From Agrobacterium tumefaciens (lineage in GTDB: Bacteria; Pseudomonadota; Alphaproteobacteria; Rhizobiales; Rhizobiaceae), in NCBI RefSeq assembly GCF_013337285.1, contig NZ_SUPW01000005.1:186001-250000 (forward strand): a DNA stretch of 64,000 bases. The letters are read 5' to 3'. This document shows, in pieces, positions 24,269-61,799 of the stretch; within the stretch, counting starts at the first letter, position 1, and every line of letters begins with the position of its first letter. Both the position numbers and the translations under genes were made by a program. Below the pieces are notes generated by a model. It was given only the letters and a program-made list of their open reading frames with translations, made no database searches and was not told the DNA's origin.

Positions 24269-25372
24269 ATGATGGATATCGACACCATCATCATTGGGGC
24301 AGGAGTAATCGGGCTGGCGGCGGCCCGTGAACTGTCGATGCGCGGCCTCTCTGTCATCGTCCTCGAGAGCGAAAAGGAATTCGGCTCCGCGACCTCTTCC
24401 CGCAACAGCGAGGTCATTCACGCCGGGCTTTATTATCCGGCCGGAAGCCTCAAGGCCCGCCTCTGCGTCGAGGGAAAAAAGAAGCTCTATGCCTTCTGTC
24501 AAAGCCACGGTGTTGCACACCGCCGCTGCGGCAAACTCATCGCGGCGGCAGATGAAGCTGAAACGGCCCTGCTGGCCGGGCTCAAGGACAAGGGCGAGGC
24601 CAATGGCTGTGAAGACCTGGAGCTGATCGATGAACGACAGGCGCTTTCGCTTGAACCCGCTCTCGCCTGCAGGGCGGCCCTGCTTTCGCCCTCGACCGGC
24701 ATCATCGACAGCCATGGTTATATGCTGGCGTTGCTCGGTGAGGCGGAAGACCATGGCGCCGCTCTTGCCTTGAACGCCCCTTTCGAAGGGGCGCAGGCAA
24801 TCAGCGGGGGTTTCCGGGTTCATGTCGGCGGCAAAGAGCCGATGAGCCTGACATGCCGCCTGCTCATCAATTCCGCCGGCCTCATCGCGCCGATGGTGGC
24901 AAAAAAGATCGAGGGACTGTCGGCACAAGCGATCCCTCAGGCGCGTTTTGCCAAGGGCAGCTATTTTTCGCTGGCAGGCAAGTCGCCGTTTTCACGGCTC
25001 ATCTATCCCGCACCGCATACCCACGGCCTTGGCGTGCACCTCACGCTCGATCTCGCCGGTCAGGCCCGGTTCGGCCCTGACGTGGAATGGGTCGAAACCA
25101 TCGATTATGCCGTCAATCCCCGCCGCATGGAGGGTTTCGGCGACGCGATACGGCGTTATTGGCCGGGCCTTCCAGAGGGTGCCTTGGTACCCGCCTATTC
25201 TGGCATCCGGCCAAAGATTTCCGGACCCGACGAACCTGCCATGGATTTCCGCATCGACGGACCGGAAACCCACGGACTTGCCGGCCTCGTCAATCTTTTT
25301 GGCATAGAAAGCCCCGGCCTGACCGCCTCGCTGGCGATCGCCGCAGACATTGCGGCACGGCTCAGGTATTAA
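24269..25372 (+). CDS. FAD-dependent oxidoreductase, L-2-hydroxyglutarate oxidase-like
   Basis: A 367-residue flavoprotein of the DAO superfamily. The N-terminal dinucleotide-binding motif is IIIGAGVIGLAAARELSMRG, followed by the family stretch ATSSRNSEVIHAGLYYPAGS, which is characteristic of the L-2-hydroxyglutarate dehydrogenase/oxidase (LhgO/L2HGDH) group. Further matches are LINSAGLIAP, RFAKGSYFSL, HTHGLGVHLT and the C-terminal GLVNLFGIESPGLTASLAI. Members oxidise L-2-hydroxyglutarate to 2-oxoglutarate, often with electrons going to the quinone pool. Two adjacent ATG codons (24269 and 24272) are both possible starts; GGGAGAC lies upstream. Its neighbour is convergent, so no operon informs the function. 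Another 2-hydroxyacid or amino acid substrate remains possible. Confidence 0.85.
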   Translation: MMDIDTIIIGAGVIGLAAARELSMRGLSVIVLESEKEFGSATSSRNSEVIHAGLYYPAGSLKARLCVEGKKKLYAFCQSHGVAHRRCGKLIAAADEAETALLAGLKDKGEANGCEDLELIDERQALSLEPALACRAALLSPSTGIIDSHGYMLALLGEAEDHGAALALNAPFEGAQAISGGFRVHVGGKEPMSLTCRLLINSAGLIAPMVAKKIEGLSAQAIPQARFAKGSYFSLAGKSPFSRLIYPAPHTHGLGVHLTLDLAGQARFGPDVEWVETIDYAVNPRRMEGFGDAIRRYWPGLPEGALVPAYSGIRPKISGPDEPAMDFRIDGPETHGLAGLVNLFGIESPGLTASLAIAADIAARLRY

Positions 25373-25387: not shown

Positions 25388-26362
25388 TCAGCCAAAACGC
25401 GACAGCGCATCCGCCATGATCCCGGGATCGACATTGCCGCCGGATGCAACTGCAATCACCATTTCACTCTCCAGTTCACCACTATGGAAAAGTGCCGCGG
25501 CAAGAGCCACCGCACCGCCGGGTTCAACAACGATCTTCAGCCGGTTGAAGGCGAGGACCGCAGCCCGCAGCGCTTCCTCATCAGTCACGGCAATGCCTTT
25601 TCCGCAAAGCCCGGCCATGATCGGGAAAGTGATGTTACCGGGTTGCGGAGTAACGATAGCGTCGCAGATCGAACCAGAGGTCGCGGCGTTACGCTCTATC
25701 TTACCCGCAGCAAGGGAGCGCGCCACATCGTCGAACCGCTCCGGTTCTGAAGTCCTGACCCTGTAGTTCGGTGCTTTCGCGGCAAGCGCGAGCGAGATGC
25801 CGGATGTGAGGCCACCGCCGCCGCAGGGCACCAGAACCTCTGCCGCACCGATCCCCAACTCCGCGCCCTGTTCAGCAATCTCCAGTCCCACCGTGCCCTG
25901 CCCGGCAATGACCAAAGGTTCGTCGTAAGGCCTGATCAGCGTCAGCCCACGTTCGCGCGACAGCCGGTCGCCAATGGCGTCTCGATCCTCGTTGGCCCGG
26001 TCATATAGCACTACCTCCGCCCCATAGGCGCGGGTATTGTCGATTTTGATCTTCGGCGCGTCGGAGGGCATGATGATGACGGCGGGAACGCCGTGCAGGC
26101 GGGCGGCGAGCGCCACACCCTGCGCGTGGTTACCGGAAGAAAAAGCCAGCACGCCCTTAGAACGCACCTCGGCAGGCAGGCCGGAGACGGCTGACCAGCC
26201 GCCGCGAAACTTGAAGGAACCCGTCCTTTGCAGGCACTCGGCCTTTACGAAGAGCTTTCGCCCGGCAATCTCATCCAGAAACGGTGATGACAGCAGCGGT
26301 GTCCGCACCGCCTGATTGCCGATGCGCTGACGCGCCGCCTCGATCATGGAAATATCTGTCAT
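25388..26362 (-). CDS. Threonine/serine dehydratase-like PLP enzyme
   Basis: A 324-residue fold-type II PLP enzyme related to catabolic threonine dehydratase, serine racemase and threo-3-hydroxyaspartate ammonia-lyase. The PLP Lys is in GSFKFRGG (about residue 52), the cofactor-binding SSGNHAQGVA follows, the phosphate-binding glycine loop is PCGGGGLTSG, and the C-terminal part ends with VASGGNVDP. There is no C-terminal ACT domain, so this is not the isoleucine-inhibited biosynthetic IlvA form. The products would be 2-oxo acids and ammonia. It converges with the flavoprotein gene (15-base gap) and stands alone on its strand. Which hydroxyamino acid it uses cannot be told from sequence. Confidence 0.88.
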   Translation of the reverse strand: MTDISMIEAARQRIGNQAVRTPLLSSPFLDEIAGRKLFVKAECLQRTGSFKFRGGWSAVSGLPAEVRSKGVLAFSSGNHAQGVALAARLHGVPAVIIMPSDAPKIKIDNTRAYGAEVVLYDRANEDRDAIGDRLSRERGLTLIRPYDEPLVIAGQGTVGLEIAEQGAELGIGAAEVLVPCGGGGLTSGISLALAAKAPNYRVRTSEPERFDDVARSLAAGKIERNAATSGSICDAIVTPQPGNITFPIMAGLCGKGIAVTDEEALRAAVLAFNRLKIVVEPGGAVALAAALFHSGELESEMVIAVASGGNVDPGIMADALSRFG

Positions 26363-26486: not shown

Positions 26487-28271
26487 TCAGTGATTGTGCC
26501 GGGGCATCTTCTCGGCAATCCTTCGGAAATCCGCAGCCCCATCCAGAACCGCGCCGTCCGAAAGCTGCGTCACCGATTGACGGTAGATGCGCTGCCAGGG
26601 CGTCGCATCCGCCGGCACCGCCGGGATGCCATCAGCCTTGCGCGCTTCAAGTTCTGCCTCCGGCACCAGCGCGTTGCATGCACCCTCATTAAAGTCGATG
26701 CGGATCACGTCGCCGGTGCGAAGCCAGGCCAGCCCGCCACCGGCTGCACTTTCCGGCGAGGCATTGAGGATTGACGGGCTGTCCGCCGTTCCCGATTGCC
26801 GGCCATCGCCGATTGTTGGCAGGCTGGTGATGCCTTTTTTCAACAAGGCATCCGGCGGCTGCATGTTGACGACCTCAGCTGAACCCGGCCAGCCGAGCGG
26901 CCCCGCCCCGCGAATGACAAGGATGGTGCGCTCGTCAATACCGAGCGATGGATCGTTGATACGGGCGTGATAGTCTTCCGAACCATCGAACACCACACAT
27001 TTGCCCTCGAAAATGCCTTCGCGGCCCGGCTCGCTCAGATAACGCTGCCGGAACTCCGCCGAGATCACACTCGTCTTCATGATGGCGAAATCGAACAGAT
27101 TGCCCTTGAGCACGAGGAAACCGGCCCGTTCCTTCAGCGGCTTGTCGTAGGGAAGGATCACGTCGCGATCGGTCGATTCCCGCCCGTCCAGATTTTCCGC
27201 CATGGTCTTGCCGGTCACGGTCGGACAGTTTCCATCGAGCTTGCCGGCCTGCAGAAGCTCCCACATGATCGCCGGCGTGCCGCCGGCGCGGTGATATTTC
27301 TCACCCAGCCATTTTCCGGCCGGCTGGACATTGGCCAGCAGCGGAATATCGTAACCGTGGACCTGCCAATCCTCTTCGAAAAGCTCGACGCCCGCATGTT
27401 TCGCCATCGCCGCGAGATGCGGCTGAGCATTGGTCGAGCCACCGATTGCCGAATTGACGCGGATCGCGTTCAAAAACGCCTCGCGCGTCATGATGTCGGA
27501 AGGCTTGATATTTTCGACAACCAGTTCAACGGCGCGTCGGCCGGTGCGATAGGCCATCTGGCCGCGCTCGCGATAAGCGGCCGGGATCGCGCCGCAGCCG
27601 GTGAGCGACATACCGAGCGCTTCCGCCATGGCATTCATGGTGGACGCCGTGCCCATGGTATTGCAATGGCCGACGGAAGGAGCAGATTCGAGCGCCGCCT
27701 GCAAGAATTCCTCGCGGGTGATTTCGCCCGCACCATATTTGCGGCGCATGCGCCAGATCACCGTGCCGGAACCGACCAGATCGCCGTCATGATAACCGTC
27801 GAGCATCGGACCCCCGGAAAGCACAATAGCCGGAATATCGACCGTGCTTGCCGCCATCAGCGCCGAAGGCGTGGTCTTGTCACAGCCCGTCGTCAGAACG
27901 ACACCGTCGAGCGGATAACCGTAAAGCACTTCCACGAGGCTGAGATAGGCAAGATTGCGGTCAAGCGCCGCGGTCGGGCGCTTGCAGTTTTCGAACATCG
28001 GATGGGTCGGAAACTCGATGGGAATACCGCCCGCATCGCGGATACCGTCACGCACCCGCTTGACCAGTTCCACATGGACGCGGTTGCAGGGCGTGAGATC
28101 GCTGCCGCTCTGCGCGATACCAATGACAGGTTTACCGGAACGCAGCTCTTCCGGCGTCACACCGTAATTCATGAAGCGCTCCAGATAGAGAGCTGTCATG
28201 TCGAGATGGTCAGGATTGTCGAACCAGTCCTGGGACCGGAGGCGGCGCATGGGTGTCTTGTCGTCGCTCAT
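26487..28271 (-). CDS. xylD: Aldonate dehydratase, XylD-like (IlvD/EDD family)
   Basis: A 594-residue [2Fe-2S] dehydratase. It resembles the Caulobacter D-xylonate dehydratase XylD along its whole length as I remember that sequence, including [11 protein letters not shown] at the start, [13 protein letters not shown] in the C-terminal part and the closing PRHNH. The three cluster cysteines are present: Cys62 (TPCNRV), Cys130 (TGCDKT) and Cys203 (GHCNTMG). It would convert a C5 aldonate such as D-xylonate to the 2-keto-3-deoxy acid. It is the last gene of a leftward unit, nine bases after the preceding reductase gene. The XylX-like gene 4.6 kb away would act on its product. Closely related IlvD/EDD enzymes accept L-arabinonate, galactonate or gluconate, so the exact substrate is not certain. 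Confidence 0.88.
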
Positions 28272-28280
28272 CAGATCGCC

Positions 28281-29183
28281 TCAGCCCTGTTCCCGATTGT
28301 TGAGTTTTTCGAGGTAAAGCAGGATGCCGCTATGGTCGATATCTGCGCCGCCGTCGCCGACGAAGTCATCGAATTCGCGCGTTACCTGCTGAGTCAAAGG
28401 CAGCGTCAACGACAGATCCTGCGCCGTCGCCAGCACGCCGTTCAGATCCTTGAGCTGGAACTTCGACGGGCCGCCCGGCACGAAATTACGCTTCACCATG
28501 CGCTCGCCATGCAGTTCCAGAATCCGGCTTTCGGCAAAACCGCCGCGTATGGCATTGCGGAAACCTTCGCGGGATGCACCGCCCGCTTCCACAAGCATCA
28601 TCGCCTCGGCAACCGCGCCGATGGTGATGGCGACGATCTGCTGGTTGGCAAGTTTGCAGAGCTGGCCCGCGCCTGAGGGACCGACATAGGTCAGCCGGCC
28701 CATCGGCGCAAAGACATCGGCAAGATCCGCAATCAGAGCCTCGTCACCGCCGGCCATGATGGCGAGCGTACCGGCAGTCGCACCCGGAACGCCGCCGGAA
28801 ACCGGCGCATCGACGTGATGAATGCCCAGCGCCTCAAGCCGGGAGGAGTGGTCGCGCGCAATCGGCGGCGCAATCGAGCTGCTGTCGATCACGACAGCAC
28901 CTTTTTTAAGCGCTTCGGCCACGCCCGCCTCGAACAGCACTTCGCCCACGGCCTTGCCATCGCTCAGCATGGTGATGACGATATCGGCACCTTTGGCGGC
29001 GTCCGCCGACGATGCCGCCAGAACTGCGCCATCAGCAACAAGAGCTTCAGCCTTATCCACGCTACGGTTCCAAACGGAAACCGCAAAGCCCGCGCCTAGC
29101 AGACGCCGGGCCATCGGCCCGCCCATCAGGCCCGTGCCGATAAAGGCAACCGACCGCTTTTTCTCCTCCCCACCGACACTCAT
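28281..29183 (-). CDS. 3-hydroxyisobutyrate dehydrogenase-family reductase
   Basis: A 300-residue beta-hydroxyacid dehydrogenase. The N-terminal Rossmann motif is FIGTGLMGGPMARRLLGAGF; the substrate-binding DAPVSGGVPGATAGTL and the catalytic Lys177 in GQLCKLANQ are intact. Relatives include 3-hydroxyisobutyrate dehydrogenase, tartronate semialdehyde reductase (GlxR) and L-threonate dehydrogenase (LtnD). Its ATG overlaps the stop of the DenD-like gene by four bases (ATGA), so translation of the two is coupled, and it precedes the XylD-like gene by nine bases. Context therefore points to a sugar-acid or small hydroxyacid substrate, not valine breakdown. The exact reaction is not readable from the sequence. 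Confidence 0.87.
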   Translation of the reverse strand: MSVGGEEKKRSVAFIGTGLMGGPMARRLLGAGFAVSVWNRSVDKAEALVADGAVLAASSADAAKGADIVITMLSDGKAVGEVLFEAGVAEALKKGAVVIDSSSIAPPIARDHSSRLEALGIHHVDAPVSGGVPGATAGTLAIMAGGDEALIADLADVFAPMGRLTYVGPSGAGQLCKLANQQIVAITIGAVAEAMMLVEAGGASREGFRNAIRGGFAESRILELHGERMVKRNFVPGGPSKFQLKDLNGVLATAQDLSLTLPLTQQVTREFDDFVGDGGADIDHSGILLYLEKLNNREQG

Positions 29184-30166
29184 TTCAGTGAACCTCCCAG
29201 TTCGTCTTCGATATGCACCTGAATGATCTCTTCGAAGGAGCTTTCAGCCGTGAAGCCCAGCTCGCGGGCGCGCTTGGCTTCGAAACCGGGCGCCCAGCCT
29301 TCGCACATGCGCATGATCATCTCGTTCGGCTCGCGGCGAATGAGGGCGACGGCCTTTTCACCGGCGACCTTGCGCAGCGCTTCGATCTGTTCGCCAACCG
29401 TGGCGCTGAGACCCGGCATCGACAGGTTGCGGCGCGGACCGACCTTTTCGACGTCAATCGTCGCACCATGGATGAGGAAACCGACGGCGGAACGCGGCGA
29501 GGCATGCCAGTGGCGAATGCTTTCCGGCACCGGCAGAACCGCTTCCTGGCCGACCAGCGGCTCTCGCAGGATATTGGAGAAGAAGCCGGAGGCGGCGGCA
29601 TTCGGCTTGCCGGGACGAATGCAGATGGTCGGGAGACGAATGCCGATACCGTCGAAGAAACCGCGGCGGCTGTAATCGGACAGCAGCAGCTCGCAAATCG
29701 CCTTCTGTGTGCCGTAGCTTGTCAGCGGCGTGGTGTGGAATTCATCCGGGATCGGATAGGGAAGCGGTGCGCCAAACACGGCGATCGACGAGGTGAAGAC
29801 CACGCGCGGCTTGTAACCATCCTTGCCGTTGGCAATGCGGATGGCGTCGAAGAGATAACGGGTGCCGTCGAGATTGATGCGGTAGCCCTTGTCAAAATCG
29901 AGTTCAGCTTCGCCGGACACGATGGCGGCGAGATGGAAGATGGCATCCGGACGGGCGTCCACCAGCTTTTCAGCTTCACCCGGAGCGGAGAGATCAGCTG
30001 CGCGCGCATCGACAGCACCGGAAAAACCGGCGGGTGCCTCGGGCTGGAACACGTCAATAAGCGTGAACTTCTCGATCGGCTTGCCACCGAGCGATCCATC
30101 TTTCACGAGACGCTGCGTCAGCTTGCGGCCAACCATGCCTGCGGCGCCGATGATTGCGATATGCAT
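29180..30166 (-). CDS. NAD-dependent epimerase/dehydratase-type sugar-acid dehydrogenase, DenD-like
   Basis: A 328-residue extended short-chain dehydrogenase starting at the ATG at 30166, which has a strong GAGGAGG ribosome site; an open extension to 30217 is not needed. The nucleotide-binding motif is IGAAGMVGRKL (residues 6-16), and the catalytic set is Ser126/127 with Tyr151 and Lys155 (SYGTQKAICEL). The overall sequence suggests the D-erythronate dehydrogenase (DenD) group. Classical erythronate loci also carry OtnK, OtnI and OtnC, none of which is present here, so it may oxidise another aldonate, or a lactone or sugar. It is the first gene of the leftward three-gene unit, and a candidate operator lies 80-98 bases upstream. 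Confidence 0.82.
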   Translation of the reverse strand: MHIAIIGAAGMVGRKLTQRLVKDGSLGGKPIEKFTLIDVFQPEAPAGFSGAVDARAADLSAPGEAEKLVDARPDAIFHLAAIVSGEAELDFDKGYRINLDGTRYLFDAIRIANGKDGYKPRVVFTSSIAVFGAPLPYPIPDEFHTTPLTSYGTQKAICELLLSDYSRRGFFDGIGIRLPTICIRPGKPNAAASGFFSNILREPLVGQEAVLPVPESIRHWHASPRSAVGFLIHGATIDVEKVGPRRNLSMPGLSATVGEQIEALRKVAGEKAVALIRREPNEMIMRMCEGWAPGFEAKRARELGFTAESSFEEIIQVHIEDELGGSLK

Positions 30167-30245
30167 GTCTTCCTCCTCTGTGTCCCGGTCATTCTCCCGA
30201 GACCGAAAAAACATCATCGGCCGATGGACCGATAAATTAGCTTGT

Positions 30246-30264
30246 AAGGTTGTCTGATAACCTT
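30246..30264. promoter_or_regulatory. Candidate operator for the FadR-type regulator, site 1
   Basis: The palindrome AAGGTT-GTCTGAT-AACCTT lies between the divergent DenD-like and FAD-oxidase genes. On the opposite strand it reads AGGTTATCAGACAACC, which matches site 2 (32803-32818, AGGTTGTCAGACATCC) at 14 of 16 positions. Sites with GTC/GAC half-elements are common for FadR-type GntR proteins. Function is inferred from position and similarity. Confidence 0.6.
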
Positions 30265-30383
30265 ATATGATCCGATTGAAAATAGTATTTTTTCACAAAC
30301 TAACAAAAGCAGGGGCGCCGGCAAAAGCAAGGCCACAAACCCTTGCCTTCATATTTTAGGGCGGATTGGACGGAGAGGGTGGA

Positions 30384-31829
30384 ATGACGATCGTGAGTGA
30401 ACACGATATCGAGGAATTGCGGTTCTCGCTGAAGAACAGGCTTGGCGAAGCTCTGCTGCTGACATCGCAGGAAGACATGCTGCGCTATTGCCGCGACTGG
30501 CACGGGGATGTCACCAGTTCGGCCGTGGCCGTCATCCGCCCCCGCTCAACGCAGGAAGTGTCCGACACGGTGCGCGCCTGCGCCGAACTCGGCCTCGCCA
30601 TCATCCCCCAGGGCGGCAATACCGGACTGGTGCTCGGCGGCATTCCCGATGCTCCCAAACATCAGGTCGTGCTGAGCCTTGAGCGTATGAACGCCATCCG
30701 CACCATAGACAGCGACGATTTTTCCGCTGTCGTTGAAGCCGGCTGCATTCTCTCGGAATTCAAGGATGCCGTTCAGGACAAGGGCATGTTCTTCCCGCTG
30801 TCGCTCGGCGCGCAGGGCAGCTGCCGCATCGGCGGCAACGTCTCCACCAATGCCGGCGGCATCAATGTTCTGCGTTACGGTATGACCCGCGAACTGGTGC
30901 TGGGTCTAGAAGTGGTCCTGCCGGATGGCACTATCTGGAACGGCCTGTCGACCCTGCGCAAGGACAATCGCGGTATCGATCTGAAGCAGCTTTTCATCGG
31001 CGCAGAAGGAACGCTCGGCATCATCACCGCCGTTGCCGTCAAGCTTTACCCCAATCCAGAACATGTCGAAACCGCGCTGCTTGGCCTCAATTCGCTTGAC
31101 GACGCCATCAAGCTTTACCGCCGCGCCCGCCGCGAATGTTGCGATCTGATGTCCGCCTTCGAATTCATGCCGCCCGTCGCCTTCACGCTGGCGATCGAAG
31201 CCATACCCGATCTCAAAATGCCGATCGCCGGCGATTATCCGGCCTATGTGCTGATGGAAATTTCCGGCTCCGGTCTGGTGGATACCGCCGATCTAATGGG
31301 CCGCTTCCTTGAGGGCGTCATGGAAGACGGTCTGGTGCTGGATGGCGTCATTGCCTCCTCGCGTGCGCAGGCGCAGTCGCTGTGGCTTTTCCGTGAGGGC
31401 ATGAACGAGGGTCAGGCGCTGCGCGGCAGCCATATGCGTACCGACATTTCGGTGCCGCTTTCGAAACTCTCGGCTTTCGTGGCCGAGGCCGAAGCGGAAC
31501 TTGCGGAAAAACTGCCGGAATGCCTTGCCGTTTCCTATGGCCATGTCGGCGACGGCAACGTCCATCTCAACGTCTTGCCGCCCAACGGTGCGACACCGCA
31601 GGAGCGTGAGGCGTTCATCTACAAGTCCAAGACACTCGTTAACGAGGTCCTCGACCGTTACGTCGGCAGCATCAGCGCCGAACACGGCATCGGCCGCCTG
31701 AAACGCTCCGATTTCGAAAGCCGGCTATCGGATGTGCAGCGCCGGATGATCACGGGTTTGAAAAATGCCTTCGACCCCGATTTGCGGATGAATCCCGGTT
31801 GCCAGATAAGCCTGCAACCGGATAGCTAA
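30384..31829 (+). CDS. FAD-linked 2-hydroxyacid dehydrogenase (GlcD/D2HGDH family)
   Basis: A 481-residue flavoenzyme of the FAD-binding type 4 family. The PP-loop of the FAD domain is PQGGNTGLVLGG, followed by GNVSTNAGGINVLRYG; the C-terminal domain holds the metal/substrate motif SYGHVGDGNVHLNV and SAEHGIGRLKR. D-2-hydroxyglutarate dehydrogenase, D-lactate dehydrogenase and the glycolate oxidase subunit GlcD belong here. The ATG at 30384 has a GGAGAGGGTGGA ribosome site; an upstream TTG at 30366 would add only six residues. It is divergent from the DenD-like unit and shares its control region, so it probably acts in the sugar-acid pathway, for example on a D-2-hydroxy acid by-product. The substrate is not determined by the motifs. 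Confidence 0.86.
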   Translation: MTIVSEHDIEELRFSLKNRLGEALLLTSQEDMLRYCRDWHGDVTSSAVAVIRPRSTQEVSDTVRACAELGLAIIPQGGNTGLVLGGIPDAPKHQVVLSLERMNAIRTIDSDDFSAVVEAGCILSEFKDAVQDKGMFFPLSLGAQGSCRIGGNVSTNAGGINVLRYGMTRELVLGLEVVLPDGTIWNGLSTLRKDNRGIDLKQLFIGAEGTLGIITAVAVKLYPNPEHVETALLGLNSLDDAIKLYRRARRECCDLMSAFEFMPPVAFTLAIEAIPDLKMPIAGDYPAYVLMEISGSGLVDTADLMGRFLEGVMEDGLVLDGVIASSRAQAQSLWLFREGMNEGQALRGSHMRTDISVPLSKLSAFVAEAEAELAEKLPECLAVSYGHVGDGNVHLNVLPPNGATPQEREAFIYKSKTLVNEVLDRYVGSISAEHGIGRLKRSDFESRLSDVQRRMITGLKNAFDPDLRMNPGCQISLQPDS

Positions 31830-31947
31830 TCGAGGAACGGCACGGGGCGGCTGAATACGCCGCCCTTTAAAACCCGCTGACGGTGAAGGAGGAAGTCGCC
31901 TGCAGCGGGTAAGATGAACCAATCGTTTCTGCGGAACGGGAGCAATC

Positions 31948-32664
31948 ATGACGCTGGAGTTCAATCAGATACATCGCAACGACCATCTGCCCGGCCGGAT
32001 CGCCGCGGAGATCGCACGCGAGATCAATGATTCGAAACTCGGGCCGGGCGACAGGCTGCCGACGGAACATGTTCTGGCAAAAACCTTCGGTGTCAGCCGC
32101 TCGGTCATTCGCGAAGCGATCGCGCAATTGCGCAATGAAGGTTTCGTCGAAACCCGCCAGGGCGTGGGTGCATTCGTCACCGATCCCCGGCAGAGGCTGT
32201 CCATCCGCATCGAGCGCTCCCGTCTGAACGACCCTGAAAATTTTCGCGATCTTTTCCAGCTTCGTATGCCCCTCGAAATCGAGGCGGCGGGGCTGGCCGC
32301 ATTGCACCGCAGTCCGCAGCAACTGGCGCGGCTGGCGGCGGCGCTGGAAAAGATGAAGACCGCTGACGACTGGTCGACGGAAGGTGTTGCCGCCGATCTC
32401 GACTTTCACCGCATTCTGGCGGAGGCAACCCAGAACGAATATTTTCTGATGTTCCTCGGTTTCATCGCGGAACGCATCAGCTCGGCCATCAACATCGCTT
32501 TCTCCCGCGCGGTTTTTGGTGACATTCTCGAGGTGACGATCGCCGAACATGTGGCAATCTACGAGGCCGTCGGGAAGGCCGACGCAACAGCCGCCAAGAA
32601 CGCCATGCGCAAGCACCTGATCGGCGCCGCAAGCCGGGTCAATCTCGAACTGGATATCTTCTGA
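31948..32664 (+). CDS. GntR-family transcriptional regulator, FadR subfamily
   Basis: A 238-residue regulator. Residues about 15-80 form the GntR winged helix with the typical GDRLPTEHVLAKTFGVSRSVIREAIAQLRNEGFVETRQGVGAFV. The C-terminal all-helical FCD domain (about 95-225) includes FHRILAEATQN and the late EHVAIYEAV, whose Asp/His residues usually bind a metal and a carboxylate ligand. The gene lies 118 bases after the FAD oxidase and 209 bases before the XylX-like gene. In such loci the regulator is usually a repressor released by the substrate or a pathway intermediate. Two matching palindromes, at 30246-30264 and 32803-32824, are its best candidate sites. Confidence 0.92.
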   Translation: MTLEFNQIHRNDHLPGRIAAEIAREINDSKLGPGDRLPTEHVLAKTFGVSRSVIREAIAQLRNEGFVETRQGVGAFVTDPRQRLSIRIERSRLNDPENFRDLFQLRMPLEIEAAGLAALHRSPQQLARLAAALEKMKTADDWSTEGVAADLDFHRILAEATQNEYFLMFLGFIAERISSAINIAFSRAVFGDILEVTIAEHVAIYEAVGKADATAAKNAMRKHLIGAASRVNLELDIF

Positions 32665-32802
32665 AAAGAAAAATAAACGCGTAAACCGTAAAGCTATAGG
32701 ACAGGTTTCCGGGCTTTGCGGATAACCAGCGATAAAAGACGATAATTTTGTCGGTGAGACCGCTAGACTCGCTTCAAAAGTCATACTAAGAAGAATAAGA
32801 TT

Positions 32803-32824
32803 AGGTTGTCAGACATCCAGACAA
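32803..32824. promoter_or_regulatory. Candidate operator for the FadR-type regulator, site 2
   Basis: AGGTTGTCAGACATCC at 32803-32818 overlaps the inverted repeat TTGTC-N9-GACAA (32806-32824). It lies 50-70 bases upstream of the XylX-like gene and matches site 1 at 14 of 16 positions. The position suits a repressor site covering the promoter of the xylX-dctQMP unit. Confidence 0.6.
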
Positions 32825-32873
32825 TAAGACCGCAGGAGGCGGCCTGTCGGAAGGCTGAAAGGGGAGGACATAT

Positions 32874-34034
32874 ATGACCGGCAAAAGGTCCATCGACGCT
32901 ACTGCAATTCTGCCTGAGGATTATGAAAACGCTTTGCTCGTCGGCCGCGTCTGGTCGAAAAGCGAAGGCGGCCCCTGCCCCGTCCTGCTCAAGGATGGCG
33001 TGCTTTATGACCTCACCTCTATCTCGCCCACCATGTCCGAACTTCTGGAAAAGACGGATCTGGTGGAGCGGCTTGCCGATACCGGAACATTCATCGCACT
33101 CGGCACGCTCGACGCCTTTCTCGACGGCTCGGCCGGCGAACTCCTCGCTCCCAACGATATTCAGGCCGTCAAGGCCGCAGGCGTTACCTTCGCCGACAGC
33201 ATGCTTGAACGGGTGATCGAGGAGCAGGCCAAGGGCGACCCTCTTCGTGCGCAGGAAATTCGCGGAAGGCTGGCTCCGGTTCTCGGCGACAACCTCAAAG
33301 GACTTGAGGCCGGTTCAGAAAAAGCAGCGGAAGTGAAGAAGCTGCTCCAGGAAATGGGCCTCTGGTCGCAATATCTGGAAGTCGGCATCGGTCCGGATGC
33401 GGAAATATTCTCCAAGGCGCAGGCCATGGCCTCGGTTGGCTGCGGCGCGCTGATCGGCGTTCACCCGAAGTCGCAATGGAACAACCCGGAGCCGGAAGTG
33501 GTGCTCGCCATTGCCTCCGACGGCCGCATTGTCGGTGCAACCCTCGGCAACGACGTCAACCTGCGCGATTTCGAAGGCCGCTCCGCCCTCCTGCTCAGCA
33601 AGGCGAAGGATAACAACGCATCCTGCGCGATCGGCCCCTTTATCCGCCTGTTTGACGGACGCTTCACTATCGAAGACGTGAAGAAGTCGCAGATTTCGCT
33701 TCTGGTCGAAGGCGAAGACGGTTTCACCATGACGGGTGTAAGCCCCATGGAGGCGATCAGCCGCACGCCGGAAAACCTTGCATCCCAGCTTCTGAACCGC
33801 AATCATCAATATCCTGACGGAGCCGTCTTTTTCCTTGGCACGATGTTCGCGCCGGTGAAGGATCGTCATGGGCCGGGTCTCGGTTTCACCCACTCCAGGG
33901 GCGACCGTGTCGAAATCTCCTCGCCCAAGCTCGGCAAGTTGATCAATTGGGTCGCGACAACCGACGAGTGCCCGGAATGGACATTCGGCACCGCGGCCCT
34001 GATGCGCAATCTGGCGAAACGCGGGCTACTCTGA
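32874..34034 (+). CDS. xylX: 2-keto-3-deoxy-xylonate dehydratase, XylX-like (FAH family)
   Basis: A 386-residue protein of the fumarylacetoacetate hydrolase superfamily. It has the blocks that I recall from Caulobacter XylX: LWSQYLEVxIGPDAEIF, WNNPEPEVVL, the long LGNDVNLRDFEGRSALLL and SKAKDNNASCAIGPF, HQYPDG, FLGTMFAP and the closing IRNLA/MRNLAKRGLL type end. XylX removes water from 2-keto-3-deoxy-D-xylonate and gives 2-oxoglutarate semialdehyde in the Weimberg pathway. The ATG at 32874 follows GGGGAGGACATAT. It is the first gene of a probable unit with the TRAP transporter. The L-arabinose branch enzyme (KDA dehydratase) belongs to another family, which supports the XylX reading. Some relatives act on other 2-keto-3-deoxy acids. 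Confidence 0.87.
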   Translation: MTGKRSIDATAILPEDYENALLVGRVWSKSEGGPCPVLLKDGVLYDLTSISPTMSELLEKTDLVERLADTGTFIALGTLDAFLDGSAGELLAPNDIQAVKAAGVTFADSMLERVIEEQAKGDPLRAQEIRGRLAPVLGDNLKGLEAGSEKAAEVKKLLQEMGLWSQYLEVGIGPDAEIFSKAQAMASVGCGALIGVHPKSQWNNPEPEVVLAIASDGRIVGATLGNDVNLRDFEGRSALLLSKAKDNNASCAIGPFIRLFDGRFTIEDVKKSQISLLVEGEDGFTMTGVSPMEAISRTPENLASQLLNRNHQYPDGAVFFLGTMFAPVKDRHGPGLGFTHSRGDRVEISSPKLGKLINWVATTDECPEWTFGTAALMRNLAKRGLL

Positions 34035-34138
34035 GCGATCAGCAGAGGTGCGTGCAGTTTTTGCGAAAAACCCATAGGTGGAGCATTCGCGGCGATCCTT
34101 AGCCGAAAATGCTTCAGATATTTCTTCGGGAGGGGAAA

Positions 34139-34669
34139 ATGCAAAAGACCATCAATCTCTTTTACCGGATTCTCGAAATCATTCTCGTCCTGCTGCTTGC
34201 CGGCATGTCGATCATGGTCTTCGTCAACGTCGTCATGCGTTACACGATGAATTCCGGCATCAACATCTCTGAAGAACTGTCGCGCTATTTCTTCGTGTGG
34301 CTGACTTTCATCGGCGCCGTGCTGACCTTTCGCGAAAACAGCCACATGGGCATTGAAACGCTCGTGATGTTCCTGTCGCGCCGCGCCCGCGTTTTTTGCA
34401 TGATCGTATCGAACATCATCATCCTGGCCTGTTCCGCCATCTTCTTCTGGGGAACCTGGAAGCAGTCCGCCATCAATGCCAGCATGCATGCCCCCGTCAC
34501 CAAGCTTTCGATGATCTGGGTATATGGCATCGGCATGTTCACCGGCGGCCTGATGTTCATCATCGCGCTGGAGCGCCTGTACCGTTATCTGACGGGTCGC
34601 GTCACAGAAGACGAAATCGCCCAGTTCGCGGGCGAGAACCTGACGATCGAACAGCTTTCGGAGCGCTGA
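34139..34669 (+). CDS. dctQ: TRAP transporter small membrane subunit
   Basis: A 176-residue DctQ-type protein with four predicted membrane helices (about 9-30, 46-64, 85-107 and 127-150). The ATG at 34139 follows an excellent GGGAGGGG ribosome site. MRYTMNSGINISEELSRYFFVWLTFIGA contains the family's conserved SEELSRY segment. DctQ pairs with the large subunit DctM in a sodium-driven tripartite transporter fed by a periplasmic binding protein. The gene is 104 bases downstream of the XylX-like gene and four bases upstream of dctM. The gap before it shows no terminator, so it is probably in the same transcript. Confidence 0.92.
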   Translation: MQKTINLFYRILEIILVLLLAGMSIMVFVNVVMRYTMNSGINISEELSRYFFVWLTFIGAVLTFRENSHMGIETLVMFLSRRARVFCMIVSNIIILACSAIFFWGTWKQSAINASMHAPVTKLSMIWVYGIGMFTGGLMFIIALERLYRYLTGRVTEDEIAQFAGENLTIEQLSER

Positions 34670-34673
34670 TACC

Positions 34674-35951
34674 ATGACACTTTTCGTTTTTGTCGGCTCT
34701 CTGCTGGGGGCCATGGCGATCGGCGTTCCCGTCGCCTTCTCCCTGATGTTCTGCGGCGTCGTGCTCATGTGGTACATGGGCATGTTCAACACCGCGATCA
34801 TCGCCCAGAACATGATCTCGGGCGCCGATACCTTCACGCTGCTCGCCATCCCCTTCTTCATCCTGGCTGGCGAACTGATGAATTCCGGTGGTCTCTCCCG
34901 CCGCATCATCGACTTCGCGATCGCACTCGTCGGCCATATCCGTGGCGGCCTCGGCATCGTGGCGATCGTCGCAGCCATCATCATGGCCAGCATCTCCGGT
35001 TCGGCCGCAGCCGATACCGCAGCCCTTGCCGCGATCCTCATTCCGATGATGGCGAAGGCCGGTTACAACATCCCGCGCTCCGGCGGCCTCATTGCCGCAG
35101 GCGGTATCATCGCGCCGGTCATTCCGCCGTCCATGGCCTTCATTGTCTTCGGCGTCGCCGCCAACGTCTCGATCACCCAGCTTTTCCTCGCCGGCATCGT
35201 TCCGGGTATTCTGATGGGCACATCGCTCATCGTCGCCTGGCTGATCGTGGTGCGTAAGGACAACGTAAAGCCCCTGCCCAAAACCTCGGGCAAGGAACGT
35301 CTGCTCGTGACCGCTCGCGCCGGCTGGGCGCTCGGCATGCCTGTCATCATTCTTGGCGGCATCAAGGCCGGCATCATGACACCGACGGAAGCTGCCGTCG
35401 TTGCCGCCGCCTATGCGCTCTTTGTCGGCATGGTGATCTATCGCGAATTGAAGCCGGCGGACCTGTTTCATGTCCTCCTGCGTGCTGCCAAGAGCACCTC
35501 GATCATCATGTTCCTCGTCTGCGCAGCACTCGTCTCCGCGTGGCTCATCACGGCTGCGAATATTCCGAACGAAGTGGCTGGCTATATCGAGCCGCTGATC
35601 GATCGCCCGATGCTGCTGATGGCCGCGATGATGGTGCTGGTTTTCATCGTCGGCACGGCGCTCGACCTGACGCCGACCATCCTCATCCTGACGCCCGTTC
35701 TGATGCCTATCGTCAAGCAGGCGGGCATCGATCCGATCTATTTCGGTGTACTCTTCATCATCAACAACGCCATCGGCCTGATTACCCCTCCGGTTGGCGT
35801 TGTACTGAACGTCGTCAGCGGCGTCGGGCGCATCCCGCTCGGCAAGGTCACGGTCGGCGTCTGGCCGTTCCTCGTTGCCGAAACCATCGTCCTGGCGCTG
35901 CTGGTGATTTTCCCGGACATCGTCCTGGTGCCTCTGCAGTACCTTCGCTAA
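34674..35951 (+). CDS. dctM: TRAP transporter large membrane subunit
   Basis: A 425-residue polytopic protein, the translocating subunit of the TRAP transporter, with about 12 hydrophobic segments. Typical DctM elements are FTLLAIPFFILAGELMNSGG, SGSAAADTAALAAILIP, GGIIAPVIPPS near the centre and the C-terminal INNAIGLITPPVGVVLNV. The family couples sodium entry to import of carboxylates presented by the binding protein. It begins four bases after dctQ. The substrate is decided mainly by the binding protein, but the location within a sugar-acid locus makes an aldonate or related acid the obvious candidate. Confidence 0.94.
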   Translation: MTLFVFVGSLLGAMAIGVPVAFSLMFCGVVLMWYMGMFNTAIIAQNMISGADTFTLLAIPFFILAGELMNSGGLSRRIIDFAIALVGHIRGGLGIVAIVAAIIMASISGSAAADTAALAAILIPMMAKAGYNIPRSGGLIAAGGIIAPVIPPSMAFIVFGVAANVSITQLFLAGIVPGILMGTSLIVAWLIVVRKDNVKPLPKTSGKERLLVTARAGWALGMPVIILGGIKAGIMTPTEAAVVAAAYALFVGMVIYRELKPADLFHVLLRAAKSTSIIMFLVCAALVSAWLITAANIPNEVAGYIEPLIDRPMLLMAAMMVLVFIVGTALDLTPTILILTPVLMPIVKQAGIDPIYFGVLFIINNAIGLITPPVGVVLNVVSGVGRIPLGKVTVGVWPFLVAETIVLALLVIFPDIVLVPLQYLR

Positions 35952-35990
35952 TCGATACTTTTTCTCGACCACAATCCAAGGGAGGATATT

Positions 35991-36998
35991 ATGAGAAAGC
36001 TTCTTCTGACCACCACCGCCATCGCTTTCGCCGTTGGCGCGGCAGCCCCGGCAATGGCTGAATTCAACAGCCGCAACATCCGCGTCTCGAACGGCATCAA
36101 CCAGGACCACCCGGTTGGCAACGGCATCAAGGCCATGCAGGCCTGCCTCGACGACAAGTCGGGCGGCAAGCTGAAGCTGACGGCATTCTGGGGCGGCGCT
36201 CTCGGCGGCGACCTTCAGGCAACACAGGCCCTGCGCTCTGGCGTTCAGGAAGCCGTCGTGACGTCGTCGTCGCCGCTCGTCGGCCTCATCCCGTCGCTCG
36301 GCGTCTTCGACCTGCCGTTCCTTTTCGCCAACGACAAGGAAGCCGATGCCGTCATGGACGGCGCCTTCGGCGACATGATGAACAAGAAGCTGGAAGAACA
36401 GGGCCTCGTCAACCTGGCCTACTGGGAAAACGGTTTCCGCAACCTGTCGAACTCCAAGCACGCCGTGAACAAGTGGGAAGATTTCTCGGGCCTCAAGGTC
36501 CGCGTAATGCAGAACAACATCTTCCTCGACACCTTCCAGAACCTCGGCGCCAATGCGACGCCGATGGCTTTCGGCGAAGTCTTCTCGGCGCTTGAAACCA
36601 ACGCGATCGACGCACAGGAAAACCCCTATGTGACGATCGACACCTCCAAGTTCTACGAGGTGCAGAAGTACATCACCGAGACAAACCACGCCTACACGCC
36701 GTTCCTCTTCCTCTTCTCCAAGCCCATCTTCGACAGCTATACGGCTGAAGAACAGACGGCCCTGCGCGAATGTGCAGTCGTCGGCCGCGACGAAGAGCGC
36801 AAGGTCATCCGCGAACTGAACCAGAAGTCGCTGGAAAAGATCAAGGCTGCCGGTCTCGAGGTCAACTCGCTGTCTCCGGAAGAACAGACCCGTATCCGCG
36901 AGAAGTCGATGGTCGTTTACGAAAAGCACAAGGCTGAAATCGGCGCCGATGTCGTTGACGCCGTTCTGGCGGACCTGAAGAAGATCCGCGGCCAGTAA
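35991..36998 (+). CDS. dctP: TRAP transporter periplasmic binding protein
   Basis: A 335-residue DctP-family binding protein. Residues 1-23 are a clear signal peptide (MRKLLLTTTAIAFAVGAAAPAMA). The mature protein holds the usual carboxylate-binding Arg in the GLKVRVMQN stretch and the family pair NPYVTIDTSKFYEVQKYIT, which lines the ligand cleft. The protein delivers a small organic acid to DctQM. It lies 39 bases after dctM with a strong GGGAGG ribosome site, and a terminator follows it. Its ligand would define the function of the whole locus. Family-level sequence suggests a sugar acid but does not identify it. Confidence 0.92.
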   Translation: MRKLLLTTTAIAFAVGAAAPAMAEFNSRNIRVSNGINQDHPVGNGIKAMQACLDDKSGGKLKLTAFWGGALGGDLQATQALRSGVQEAVVTSSSPLVGLIPSLGVFDLPFLFANDKEADAVMDGAFGDMMNKKLEEQGLVNLAYWENGFRNLSNSKHAVNKWEDFSGLKVRVMQNNIFLDTFQNLGANATPMAFGEVFSALETNAIDAQENPYVTIDTSKFYEVQKYITETNHAYTPFLFLFSKPIFDSYTAEEQTALRECAVVGRDEERKVIRELNQKSLEKIKAAGLEVNSLSPEEQTRIREKSMVVYEKHKAEIGADVVDAVLADLKKIRGQ

Positions 36999-59955: not shown

Positions 59956-60066
59956 TTATCAGCCAATTCAGCGGTTTGCCGGTAAAAGGTCAACCCATTG
60001 CCATGATATAACGAAGTGCTATGACTTCACGTTAAATAACCTGCAAAGCAAAATCTCGTGAAAAAC

Positions 60067-60615
60067 ATGAGCAAACCCTCGCCAAGACAACGTAAACGCG
60101 CATCAACGCTCGTGGTTCGGCCGGCTCCCTCAAAAACCAGCCGTGCCATCGTCCAGCTCGGGCACCTCACCTTTCCCGCCGCGATCGGGCGCAATGGCCG
60201 CACCGCGATGAAACGCGAGGGAGACGGCAAATCACCCATTTCCCGCACCCGCCTGCTGTATGGATTTTATCGCGGCGACCGCAATACCGGCATCACCACA
60301 ACATTGCCGATGCAGCGGACGCGCAGATCCATGCTATGGTGTGACGAACCCCGTAGCGCCAATTACAACAGGCTGGTCAAAACGCCCTTTGCGCCAAGCC
60401 ATGAAGAAATGATGCGCAAGGACGGTCTCTACGACGTCTGCCTGGTGCTTGACTGGAACATCACCTCAAGAAGCCGCAACCGGGGCTCGGCGATCTTCAT
60501 GCATTTGATCCGTCCGGGATATGAGCCGACCGCTGGCTGCGTCGCCCTCCACCCTAAAGACATGCGGCGTATTCTGCCCCACATGCGCAAAGGCACGAGA
60601 ATCCGCATTCTTTGA
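60067..60615 (+). CDS. L,D-transpeptidase (YkuD-type) domain protein without signal peptide
   Basis: A 182-residue protein whose C-terminal half resembles the YkuD L,D-transpeptidase domain: GSAIFMHLIRPGYEPTAGCVALHPKDMRRIL contains the upstream His and the catalytic Cys in TAGCVAL, while the usual His right before Gly-Cys is Ala. TFPAAIGRNGRTAMKREGDGKSPISRTRLLYGFYR is the typical N-terminal part of the domain. Such enzymes make 3-3 peptide cross-links or attach proteins to peptidoglycan. The N-terminus is basic (KPSPRQRKRAS) with no hydrophobic signal, which is unusual for a periplasmic enzyme. A GTG at 60058 is an alternative start. Confidence 0.75.
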   Translation: MSKPSPRQRKRASTLVVRPAPSKTSRAIVQLGHLTFPAAIGRNGRTAMKREGDGKSPISRTRLLYGFYRGDRNTGITTTLPMQRTRRSMLWCDEPRSANYNRLVKTPFAPSHEEMMRKDGLYDVCLVLDWNITSRSRNRGSAIFMHLIRPGYEPTAGCVALHPKDMRRILPHMRKGTRIRIL

Positions 60616-60638
60616 AGCGCATCGTGCAATCGGGCAAC

Positions 60639-60667
60639 AAAAAACCCGCCATTCGTGGCGGGTTTTT
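60639..60667. terminator. Terminator between the transpeptidase gene and carD, bidirectional
   Basis: A perfect 10-bp stem (AAAACCCGCC, loop ATTCGT, complement) has an A run before and a T run after. It can end both convergent transcripts. Confidence 0.93.
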
Positions 60668-60688
60668 TTAGAAGGAAGAGGCCGGTTA

Positions 60689-61258
60689 TTAAGCGGCTTC
60701 GTCCTGAGAATCGTCCTCTTCAACAGCCTTGCCACGCTTGGGGCCTTTGGCAAGGTTGACTTCCACCAGGCGAACAGCCTCGGTTTCGGACATCTTGTTG
60801 ACGGCGGCAATTTCGCGCGCCATGCGATCGAGAGCAGCTTCATAAAGCTGACGCTCGGAATAGGACTGCTCCGGCTGATTTTCGGCACGGTAAAGATCGC
60901 GCACCACTTCCGCGATCGCGATAAGATCGCCGGAATTGATTTTCGCATCATATTCCTGGGCGCGGCGCGACCACATGGTACGCTTCACACGTGCCTTGCC
61001 CTGCACCACTTTCAGCGCCCGCTCGACAAAATCGCCTTCGGAAAGCTTGCGCATGCCGATGCTCACGGCTTTAGCGACGGGAACCTTAAGACGCATCTTG
61101 TCTTTTTCGAAATCGATGACAAAAAGCTCAAGCTTCATGCCGGCGACTTCTTGTTCCTCGATTGCAGAAATGGTACCGACACCATGAGCGGGATACACAA
61201 TCGCTTCACCGGTCTTGAAACCGTGATGTGCTGGAGATTTCTTCTGCTGGGTCGTCAT
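60689..61258 (-). CDS. carD: CarD-family transcriptional regulator
   Basis: A 189-residue protein of the CarD_CdnL_TRCF family. The N-terminal RNA-polymerase-interaction domain (about 12-75) has VYPAHGVGTISAIEEQEVAG, the typical start of this Tudor-like fold, and the helical C-terminal domain contains RRAQEYDAKINSGDLIAIAEVVRDLYR, a family signature with the promoter-contacting Trp region nearby (TMWSRRAQEY). CarD/CdnL proteins stabilise the RNA polymerase open complex at housekeeping promoters, including rRNA promoters. The ends are charged (EEDDSQDEAA). The gene stands alone, 15 kb from fdxA. Confidence 0.94.
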   Translation of the reverse strand: MTTQQKKSPAHHGFKTGEAIVYPAHGVGTISAIEEQEVAGMKLELFVIDFEKDKMRLKVPVAKAVSIGMRKLSEGDFVERALKVVQGKARVKRTMWSRRAQEYDAKINSGDLIAIAEVVRDLYRAENQPEQSYSERQLYEAALDRMAREIAAVNKMSETEAVRLVEVNLAKGPKRGKAVEEDDSQDEAA

Positions 61259-61799
61259 TCGTTCTAAAAACTCCCTGTTACATACCCGGCAATGCCGGGG
61301 TTGGGTCGGTCAGGCCCTGATGAGACGGGGGAACCGTCAAGTGACTCCGCACTGGTCCAGCCGTGTACGCAAAAAAACACCTTCCCGCATTGCGGGGTTC
61401 GATAACGTAAACGCTCGATATGTCACGGAAACCGCGTGCAAAAGAGGTGTTGCTTTCGTGGTGTTTTTGGGCACACAAATGCCACGCTGTGGATCAGTGT
61501 CGTTGGTGTACCACAAAAATAGGCGCAAATCAATAATTTGCTTCGACCGTGGCCGCAACATCACATGGCGGCTCAATAACCGCCTAAAAATTAGTCGCTA
61601 AAATACTGTCAAATGCTTCGCGACAGACCCTCATGGCAAAAGAAGCAAAAAAATTTCACTTACCAACCAAAGAAATACGAAAGCCTCTTAAACTCTTCGT
61701 AATTCCACGCCAATATCCGATTCGACTGAAAAGGCAAAATCCGTAAATTGACGGTGCTTTTTTACATTAAAGTGTGATTTTTGGAGGAATCCACGTCAA
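61259..61799. other. 541-base carD/gdh intergenic region, AT-rich on the right
   Basis: The region separates divergent carD and the NAD-glutamate dehydrogenase gene and should hold both promoters. The right half (about 61600-61799) is clearly richer in A and T than the rest of the window. A small hairpin GGCGG-N8-CCGCC lies at 61567-61584, and a possible -35 element TTGACG at about 61748 faces the dehydrogenase gene. No open frame has protein character. I cannot exclude a small RNA here. Confidence 0.45.

Follow-up and report, generated by a model that had tools for sequence, protein, structure and literature searches.

The genome of Agrobacterium tumefaciens assembly GCF_013337285.1 carries a candidate sugar-acid locus in which two dehydratases, three oxidoreductases and a regulator accompany a complete tripartite ATP-independent periplasmic (TRAP) transporter. 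The nine genes form two divergent units at positions 26487–36998 of a 64,000-nucleotide stretch of contig NZ_SUPW01000005.1 (hereafter referred to as the window; C15:186001–250000 in our numbering). We assigned families by NCBIfam and Pfam profile searches and also searched the genome, which comprises 5.0 Mb in 19 contigs. An original prediction made from the DNA letters had named all nine genes, and each is present where it placed them:

26487–28271, minus strand: XylD-like IlvD/Edd Fe-S dehydratase, predicted D-xylonate dehydratase (594 amino acids (aa); NF009560, 1038.6 bits against a cut-off of 684)
28281–29183, minus strand: NAD(P) reductase resembling 3-hydroxyisobutyrate dehydrogenase and tartronate semialdehyde reductase (300 aa; Pfam NAD_binding_2 and NAD_binding_11)
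29180–30169, minus strand: DenD-like extended short-chain dehydrogenase/reductase (SDR; 329 aa; NF043036, 367.1 bits against a cut-off of 325)
30248–30262, no strand: operator-like 15-bp palindrome GGTTGTCTGATAACC in the divergent DenD/flavoenzyme promoter
30384–31829, plus strand: FAD-linked D-2-hydroxyacid dehydrogenase, similar to D-2-hydroxyglutarate dehydrogenase (D2HGDH) with a changed distal pocket (481 aa; FAD_binding_4 and FAD-oxidase_C)
31948–32664, plus strand: FadR/GntR-type regulator (Pfam GntR and FCD)
32804–32818, no strand: second operator-like palindrome GGTTGTCAGACATCC, upstream of the FAH–dctQMP unit
32874–34034, plus strand: XylX-like FAH-superfamily protein, predicted 2-keto-3-deoxypentonate (KDP) dehydratase (386 aa; 9kkt, 405.7 bits)
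34109–34669, plus strand: TRAP small permease DctQ (PF04290)
34674–35951, plus strand: TRAP large permease DctM (PF06808; TIGR00786, 454.1 bits against a cut-off of 268.45)
35991–36998, plus strand: TRAP solute receptor DctP, CxaP-like, predicted aldonate binder (best solved match 7bbr)

The gene order, the long reading frames and their conservation exclude chance as the source of this arrangement. For DenD, we prefer the ATG at 30169 to a start at 30217 on the ribosome site, judged by eye, and the flavoenzyme is taken to start at the ATG at 30384, where the open-reading-frame list gives a TTG at 30366. The reductase gene and the DenD stop overlap by 4 bp, which suggests translational coupling. 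NCBIfam and Pfam searches reveal neither a sugar dehydrogenase (xylose dehydrogenase) nor a lactonase among the nine genes, as expected if the acid itself is imported. A scan gave 4 sigma-70 promoters against 3.6 (s.d. 1.9) in shuffles and 14 terminators against 10.3 (s.d. 3.0); we claim neither.

To place the locus among its relatives, we ranked the confirmed relatives, at least 496 among 592 stretches, by DenD match and retained the best 80 DenD loci, which are not an unbiased census, counting genes at 60% coverage. A neighbourhood search of this kind had been proposed with the original prediction, and it returned the complete set of nine genes in 47 of the 80 loci. These complete loci are mostly from Rhizobiaceae, but also from Paracoccus (L104, L107 and L132), Falsirhodobacter (L138), Tianweitania (L118) and one strain of Brucella pituitosa (L101). 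By gene, the regulator and each TRAP gene are found in 76 loci, the flavoenzyme in 75, the reductase in 73, FAH in 72 and XylD in 56; without the coverage limit, the counts are 48 for the nine genes, 57 for XylD, 73 for FAH and 39 for an enolase-type gene described below (three fragments included). The reductase alone is missing in Pannonibacter (L129) and Bordetella (L136). Among these best 80 of 496, the nearest named loci are mostly from Agrobacterium. In two regions judged to represent the same strain (L110 and L055, with equal FAH coordinates, G033/G062), the operon is split, and DenD, the flavoenzyme and the regulator lie apart from FAH–dctQMP.

The IlvD/Edd dehydratase belongs to the PRK13017 subfamily. 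Its closest solved chain is 5oyn (73.8% identity over 591 columns), which we take to be Caulobacter crescentus XylD, and C62, C130 and C203 all occupy the expected positions of the cysteines that serve the cluster, as had been noticed earlier. There are five PF00920 places in the genome, one of which encodes a clear L-arabinonate dehydratase (1120.5 bits against a cut-off of 882). A second PRK13017 member, adjoining ABC transporter genes, is about 61% identical to both the window dehydratase and 5oyn. The higher identity of the window enzyme to 5oyn, together with the separate L-arabinonate dehydratase, identifies it as the XylD-type copy of this genome.

The FAH-superfamily protein matches 9kkt best and 2q18, a 2-keto-3-deoxy-D-arabinonate dehydratase, more weakly. 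Its E177, E206, E208 and D227 align with E114, E143, E145 and D164 of 2q18, and we presume active-site roles for the last three. According to passages of PMC6336799, KDP dehydratases are marked by a specific glutamate, whereas the hydrolase has a His/Glu pair. E177 corresponds to this glutamate, and the protein is thus predicted to be an XylX-like KDP dehydratase. The identity to 5oyn, the cluster cysteines and E177 together lend sequence support to the original assignment of both enzymes as Weimberg-type dehydratases.

The closest solved structure to DctP is 7bbr, presumably the aldonate receptor CxaP. Residues aligned with N151, R154 and R175 of 7bbr, which we take to be its ligand residues, are kept in 77/77 DctP rows (76 loci and the window); the second-best solved match, 4p47, has a leucine at the N151 place. 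These similarities favour the predicted entry of an aldonate through the TRAP system. The genome also encodes a membrane sugar dehydrogenase dependent on pyrroloquinoline quinone (PQQ; 1172.7 bits against a cut-off of 832.65). On pSymA of S. meliloti, an annotated PQQ-dependent sugar dehydrogenase (L183:17502–18494) lies about 5 kb from the operon copy.

A palindrome search over the intergenic regions gave one 15-bp motif, GGTTGTCWGACAACC. It is matched at 13 or more of the 15 positions in all 75 divergent DenD/flavoenzyme promoters and in none of 1,500 base shuffles. In the regulator/FAH regions, at least 13 positions match in 49 of 62 and at least 12 in 57 of 62 (shuffles, 0.08% at 13). The promoters that yielded the consensus are also those used for the counts; shuffles and the reversed pattern served as controls, and the latter has 3 genome matches at no more than one mismatch. 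The pattern GGTTRTCWGAYAWCC, built to fit both window sites, has exact genome matches only at 30248–30262 and 32804–32818. With as many as two mismatches allowed, the window contains six matches, counting both strands of three places, where 0.63 would be expected. A third genome match with one mismatch (C1:834676) was set aside, as by eye it falls inside a frame resembling a cytochrome. Site 30248–30262 overlaps a promoter-like pair (30242–30271) that itself does not rise above shuffles. A weaker copy at 31797–31811, close to the 3′ end of the flavoenzyme gene and ahead of the regulator gene, reaches 13/15 in L070–L074. Co-regulation of the two units, on which the original prediction had staked itself, is well supported in silico, because the same operator-like palindrome stands in both promoters and recurs across loci. 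Its position and the shared palindrome make the FadR-type protein the probable regulator of both units.

A 2-oxoglutarate-semialdehyde dehydrogenase is not among the locus genes of the window. In seven genomes of Agrobacterium relatives (eight regions), the gene set comes with a 477-aa aldehyde dehydrogenase. Its neighbours are DenD and the reductase in L050, L051, L052 (= L076), L077 and L078, and FAH is its only neighbour from the set in L053 and L063; in another family, a 78% relative adjoins FAH (L062). The 477-aa protein scores best against 2-oxoglutarate-semialdehyde dehydrogenase (558.7 against 770 bits) and 2,5-dioxovalerate dehydrogenase (514.3 against 750), below cut-off in both cases. 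Another aldehyde dehydrogenase (L169:9233–10708) was not chosen; it scores best, though below cut-off, against betaine aldehyde dehydrogenase, and it adjoins DapA-like and D-amino-acid-dehydrogenase-like genes, a neighbourhood that we take to resemble hydroxyproline clusters.

PDB 2hrz, presumably from A. tumefaciens, is nearly identical to the window DenD, which passes the NCBIfam cut-off for D-erythronate dehydrogenase. DenD in Brucella oxidizes D-erythronate to 2-oxo-tetronate, according to passages of PMC10580937. If the window DenD were a true D-erythronate dehydrogenase, the locus would serve D-erythronate or L-threonate; in favour of this are its score and the relatives that stand beside otnK on S. 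meliloti pSymB (68% identity, with otnI and ltnD), in Martelella (66%) and in Nitratireductor (L190; 59%). However, the partner genes are those of pentonate enzymes, and the 17 operon DenDs lie apart from the 12 others, L211 among them, in a 29-row tree, with modest support (0.73). OtnK, OtnI and OtnC, whose absence had been pointed out before, are indeed not among the locus genes; the genome-wide search, which covered OtnK and not OtnI or OtnC, found no full OtnK but one 346-aa protein that matches PF07005 in its N-terminal part only (102.5 against 450 bits for the D-threonate kinase model). We regard a four-carbon substrate as highly improbable.

In Nitratireductor, an IlvD/Edd gene directly precedes DenD, and on a plasmid of the betaproteobacterium Caballeronia sp. 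SBC2 (L211, 8001–10900) DenD (68.5%) is directly followed by an IlvD/Edd dehydratase (64% to XylD), indicating that DenD and IlvD/Edd dehydratases meet repeatedly. The 16 DenD regions inspected on plasmid records comprise four with the operon (L183, L187, L205 and L206), three with otnK (L184, L190 and L207), three without annotation (L209–L211) and six in other contexts. The A. tumefaciens genome has a second DenD (C13:501032–502009; L164:9024–10067), with 70% identity and a score over the NCBIfam cut-off, whose neighbours are SDRs, a 2-hydroxyacid dehydrogenase and, by eye, a transporter of the tripartite tricarboxylate type.

The flavoenzyme is closest among solved structures to 3pm9 and 6lpn (D2HGDH) rather than to GlcD. 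Among NCBIfam models GlcD ranks first, but the score of 243.2 bits falls far short of the cut-off (567.9). This refines the earlier GlcD/D2HGDH-type assignment towards its D2HGDH side. Residues for metal binding and catalysis (R386, H434, H441, E475 and H476 of human D2HGDH) are kept in 76/76 rows (75 loci and the window), whereas Asn and Arg replace Thr390 and Lys401 in every row. Passages of PMC7801405 describe Lys401 as binding the C5 carboxylate, strictly conserved in D2HGDH and needed for activity of the human enzyme, Thr390 as highly conserved, and the corresponding pocket place of GlcD and most D-lactate dehydrogenases as occupied by hydrophobic or small residues. With N/R/Y/N in all 76 rows, the distal pocket is polar and, by sequence, unlike those of both groups. 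At the family level, these data agree with the proposal that the flavoenzyme handles a D-2-hydroxy acid, but they do not extend to the residue pattern of D2HGDH.

The D2HGDH-like match and the kept catalytic residues would also suit metabolite repair or detoxification, in which the flavoenzyme and the reductase would not be pathway steps but would deal with products such as D-2-hydroxyglutarate from 2-oxoglutarate. An L-2-hydroxyglutarate-oxidase-like gene (24269–25372, below cut-off) lies nearby. The two exchanges in all 76 rows speak against such a role, although an arginine could still hold a carboxylate, and it is the 44% paralogue elsewhere in the genome that has the D2HGDH-like pattern, with Ser and Lys at the Thr390 and Lys401 places. 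We consider repair improbable.

The reductase was previously described as 3-hydroxyisobutyrate-dehydrogenase-like; its nearest models are those of tartronate semialdehyde reductase (TSAR), below cut-off (265.8 against 340.75 bits). A variant of route III would give each gene a job: after XylD, DenD would oxidize KDP at C-4, hydrolysis by the FAH enzyme would split the resulting diketo acid into pyruvate and glycolate, glycolate would be oxidized to glyoxylate by the flavoenzyme and the TSAR-like reductase would act on tartronate semialdehyde. GlcD and TSAR are the best NCBIfam models of the last two enzymes, and the first part of the route exists in Herbaspirillum according to passages of PMC6336799. 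However, both scores are below cut-off; the FAH protein is a long, XylX-type member that carries the dehydratase glutamate (E177) and, by eye, lacks the hydrolase His/Glu pair given in the same passages; the flavoenzyme pocket differs from those of GlcD and D-lactate dehydrogenases as given in passages of PMC7801405; and sister loci carry the 2-oxoglutarate-semialdehyde-dehydrogenase-like gene. This variant appears quite unlikely.

Gene content, conservation, the shared palindrome and the kept active-site residues together suggest that the window most probably encodes an inducible, non-phosphorylative aldonate pathway of the Weimberg kind that starts from the imported acid instead of the sugar, with D-xylonate as the probable substrate and 2-oxoglutarate as the end product. 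From these features we infer the substrates, the binding and ligand of the regulator and the use of the PQQ enzyme, as well as a relay at C-2. The substrates would be aldonates with a (2R,3S) pattern. The most likely one is D-xylonate, which the membrane-bound PQQ sugar dehydrogenase would form outside the cytoplasm or other organisms would supply; DctP would capture it and DctQM would carry it into the cell. XylD would dehydrate the aldonate to KDP, and a further dehydration by the FAH enzyme would produce 2-oxoglutarate semialdehyde. Oxidation of this semialdehyde to 2-oxoglutarate would fall to an aldehyde dehydrogenase, which some sister lineages carry in the locus itself and which is presumably encoded elsewhere in this genome. 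The FadR-type regulator would sit on the palindrome in both promoters until released by the acid or a product.

The three oxidoreductases may feed other aldonates into this pathway by redox chemistry at C-2. The flavoenzyme would irreversibly oxidize a 2-hydroxy acid, with electrons flowing towards the respiratory chain. DenD, the reductase or both would shift a hydride at the same carbon with NAD(P), turning unusable aldonates into one that XylD can use. We put this relay forward tentatively, as somewhat less than an even chance; interconversion of stereoisomers by an oxidation/reduction pair, as originally proposed, is plausible, with putative substrates.

Several findings weigh against this interpretation. 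FAH is absent from 8 of the 80 loci, the reductase from 7 and the flavoenzyme from 5, and 24 have no full XylD (L126 because its contig ends). FAH is more widespread than the operon: of 20 regions around FAH relatives, 5 hold all nine genes, and in 10 no other gene of the set passes the thresholds; these 10 include the six regions that come from other families within the order. Four of the five genomes with the aldehyde dehydrogenase beside DenD (L050, L051, L077 and L078) have no XylD there, and Pfam and BLAST searches of the A. tumefaciens genome found no orthologue of that dehydrogenase among its 17 PF00171 places (best, 39%). Exact palindromes are confined to the locus, leaving control of genes elsewhere without support. 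Caulobacter XylD also accepts D-gluconate, so hexonates are possible substrates. Finally, DenD is known for the R-configured C-2, and D2HGDH-type enzymes are likewise R-preferring at this carbon; the relay leaves the need for both unexplained.

Among the 24 loci without a full XylD, 15 have an enolase-superfamily enzyme inside the fetched stretch and 9 have no full copy nearby. The enolase-type gene occupies the place of XylD, between the reductase and FAH, in L103, L112, L114, L117, L125 and L128 (a fragment only in L122), and it flanks or sits inside the TRAP operon in 38 of the 80 loci. The copy in the A. tumefaciens genome (C14:203669–204859; L165:9158–10360) lies beside a GntR gene, unlinked to the locus. 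Its family is nearest to 4dx3 and 2pod, and its best models are galactonate/gluconate dehydratases, below cut-off. Of 20 genomes without the operon XylD, 19 have no copy above 64% identity and one (G068) has an 86% copy; all 20 carry a 62–64% XylD paralogue, which may perform the dehydration there. An FAH homologue of at least 56% identity is present in 14/14 genomes queried. It is possible, though doubtful, that the 4dx3-group enzyme is an isofunctional substitute for XylD, and hence a bacterial xylonate dehydratase from a different superfamily, and that, at the same time, mixed aldonates are channelled by the C-2 relay to a single Weimberg dehydratase, the flavoenzyme rendering their oxidation irreversible.

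The models matched by the enolase-type neighbour also bear on whether D-gluconate, D-galactonate or D-fuconate is the substrate, with the oxidoreductases acting on six-carbon acids. The passages available on CxaP list these acids as well, and a gluconate-5-dehydrogenase-like SDR (below cut-off) lies in the fetched stretch of 15 of the 80 loci. The FAH step, however, fits a five-carbon 2-keto-3-deoxy acid, and the genome encodes another PRK13017 dehydratase (61% identity) elsewhere, beside ABC transporter genes. We judge a hexonate locus unlikely.

Near the XylD end of the window locus, the L-2-hydroxyglutarate-oxidase-like gene has relatives in 8 of the 80 loci, and a pyridoxal-phosphate enzyme resembling threo-3-hydroxyaspartate ammonia-lyase (25388–26362, below cut-off) in 9, all of them Agrobacterium-type. 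The G+C content of window positions 60001–62000 (0.524) is below that of the rest of the window.

The pentonate pathway of the Weimberg kind proposed here would provide a testable function for a gene set of many plant-associated and soil bacteria, and for two proteins whose PDB relatives (2hrz and 4dx3) carry generic names only. If the relay is true, it would explain how bacteria that oxidize sugars outside the cell use mixed acids. In addition, an automatic label of D-erythronate dehydrogenase can sit in a pentonate-type operon without erythronate enzymes. We found no description of this gene set in openly licensed papers, in agreement with the original view that the combination is not a described pathway; papers on CxaPQM of Advenella may cover part of it.

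The locus can be compared with several known systems. Like route II of Herbaspirillum, as described in passages of PMC6336799, it has an FAH-superfamily (COG3970) KDP dehydratase; in routes II and III there, by contrast, the KDP dehydrogenases are COG1028 SDRs and the FAH hydrolase is of another type, and those passages describe no TRAP importer. With the D-erythronate/L-threonate pathway (DenD, LtnD, OtnI, OtnK and OtnC), the locus shares a DenD family member and a reductase of the LtnD superfamily, but this reductase is far below the LtnD cut-off (140.5 against 350 bits) and the three Otn proteins are missing from the locus. The flavoenzyme resembles the D2HGDH family in sequence and in metal and catalytic residues, and differs from it at the two C5-carboxylate positions. 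The Weimberg gene set of Caulobacter crescentus, xylXABCD, likewise unites XylD- and XylX-type dehydratases in one locus, with 2-oxoglutarate as the end that we predict here; the window locus lacks the xylose dehydrogenase, lactonase and semialdehyde dehydrogenase and instead has a TRAP importer, DenD, a D2HGDH-like flavoenzyme, a reductase and a FadR-type regulator. In Advenella mimigardefordensis, CxaPQM takes up acids after periplasmic sugar oxidation, and the locus resembles this system in its DctP, the nearest solved relative of which keeps the same ligand residues, in the PQQ sugar dehydrogenase of the genome and in the predicted logic of import.

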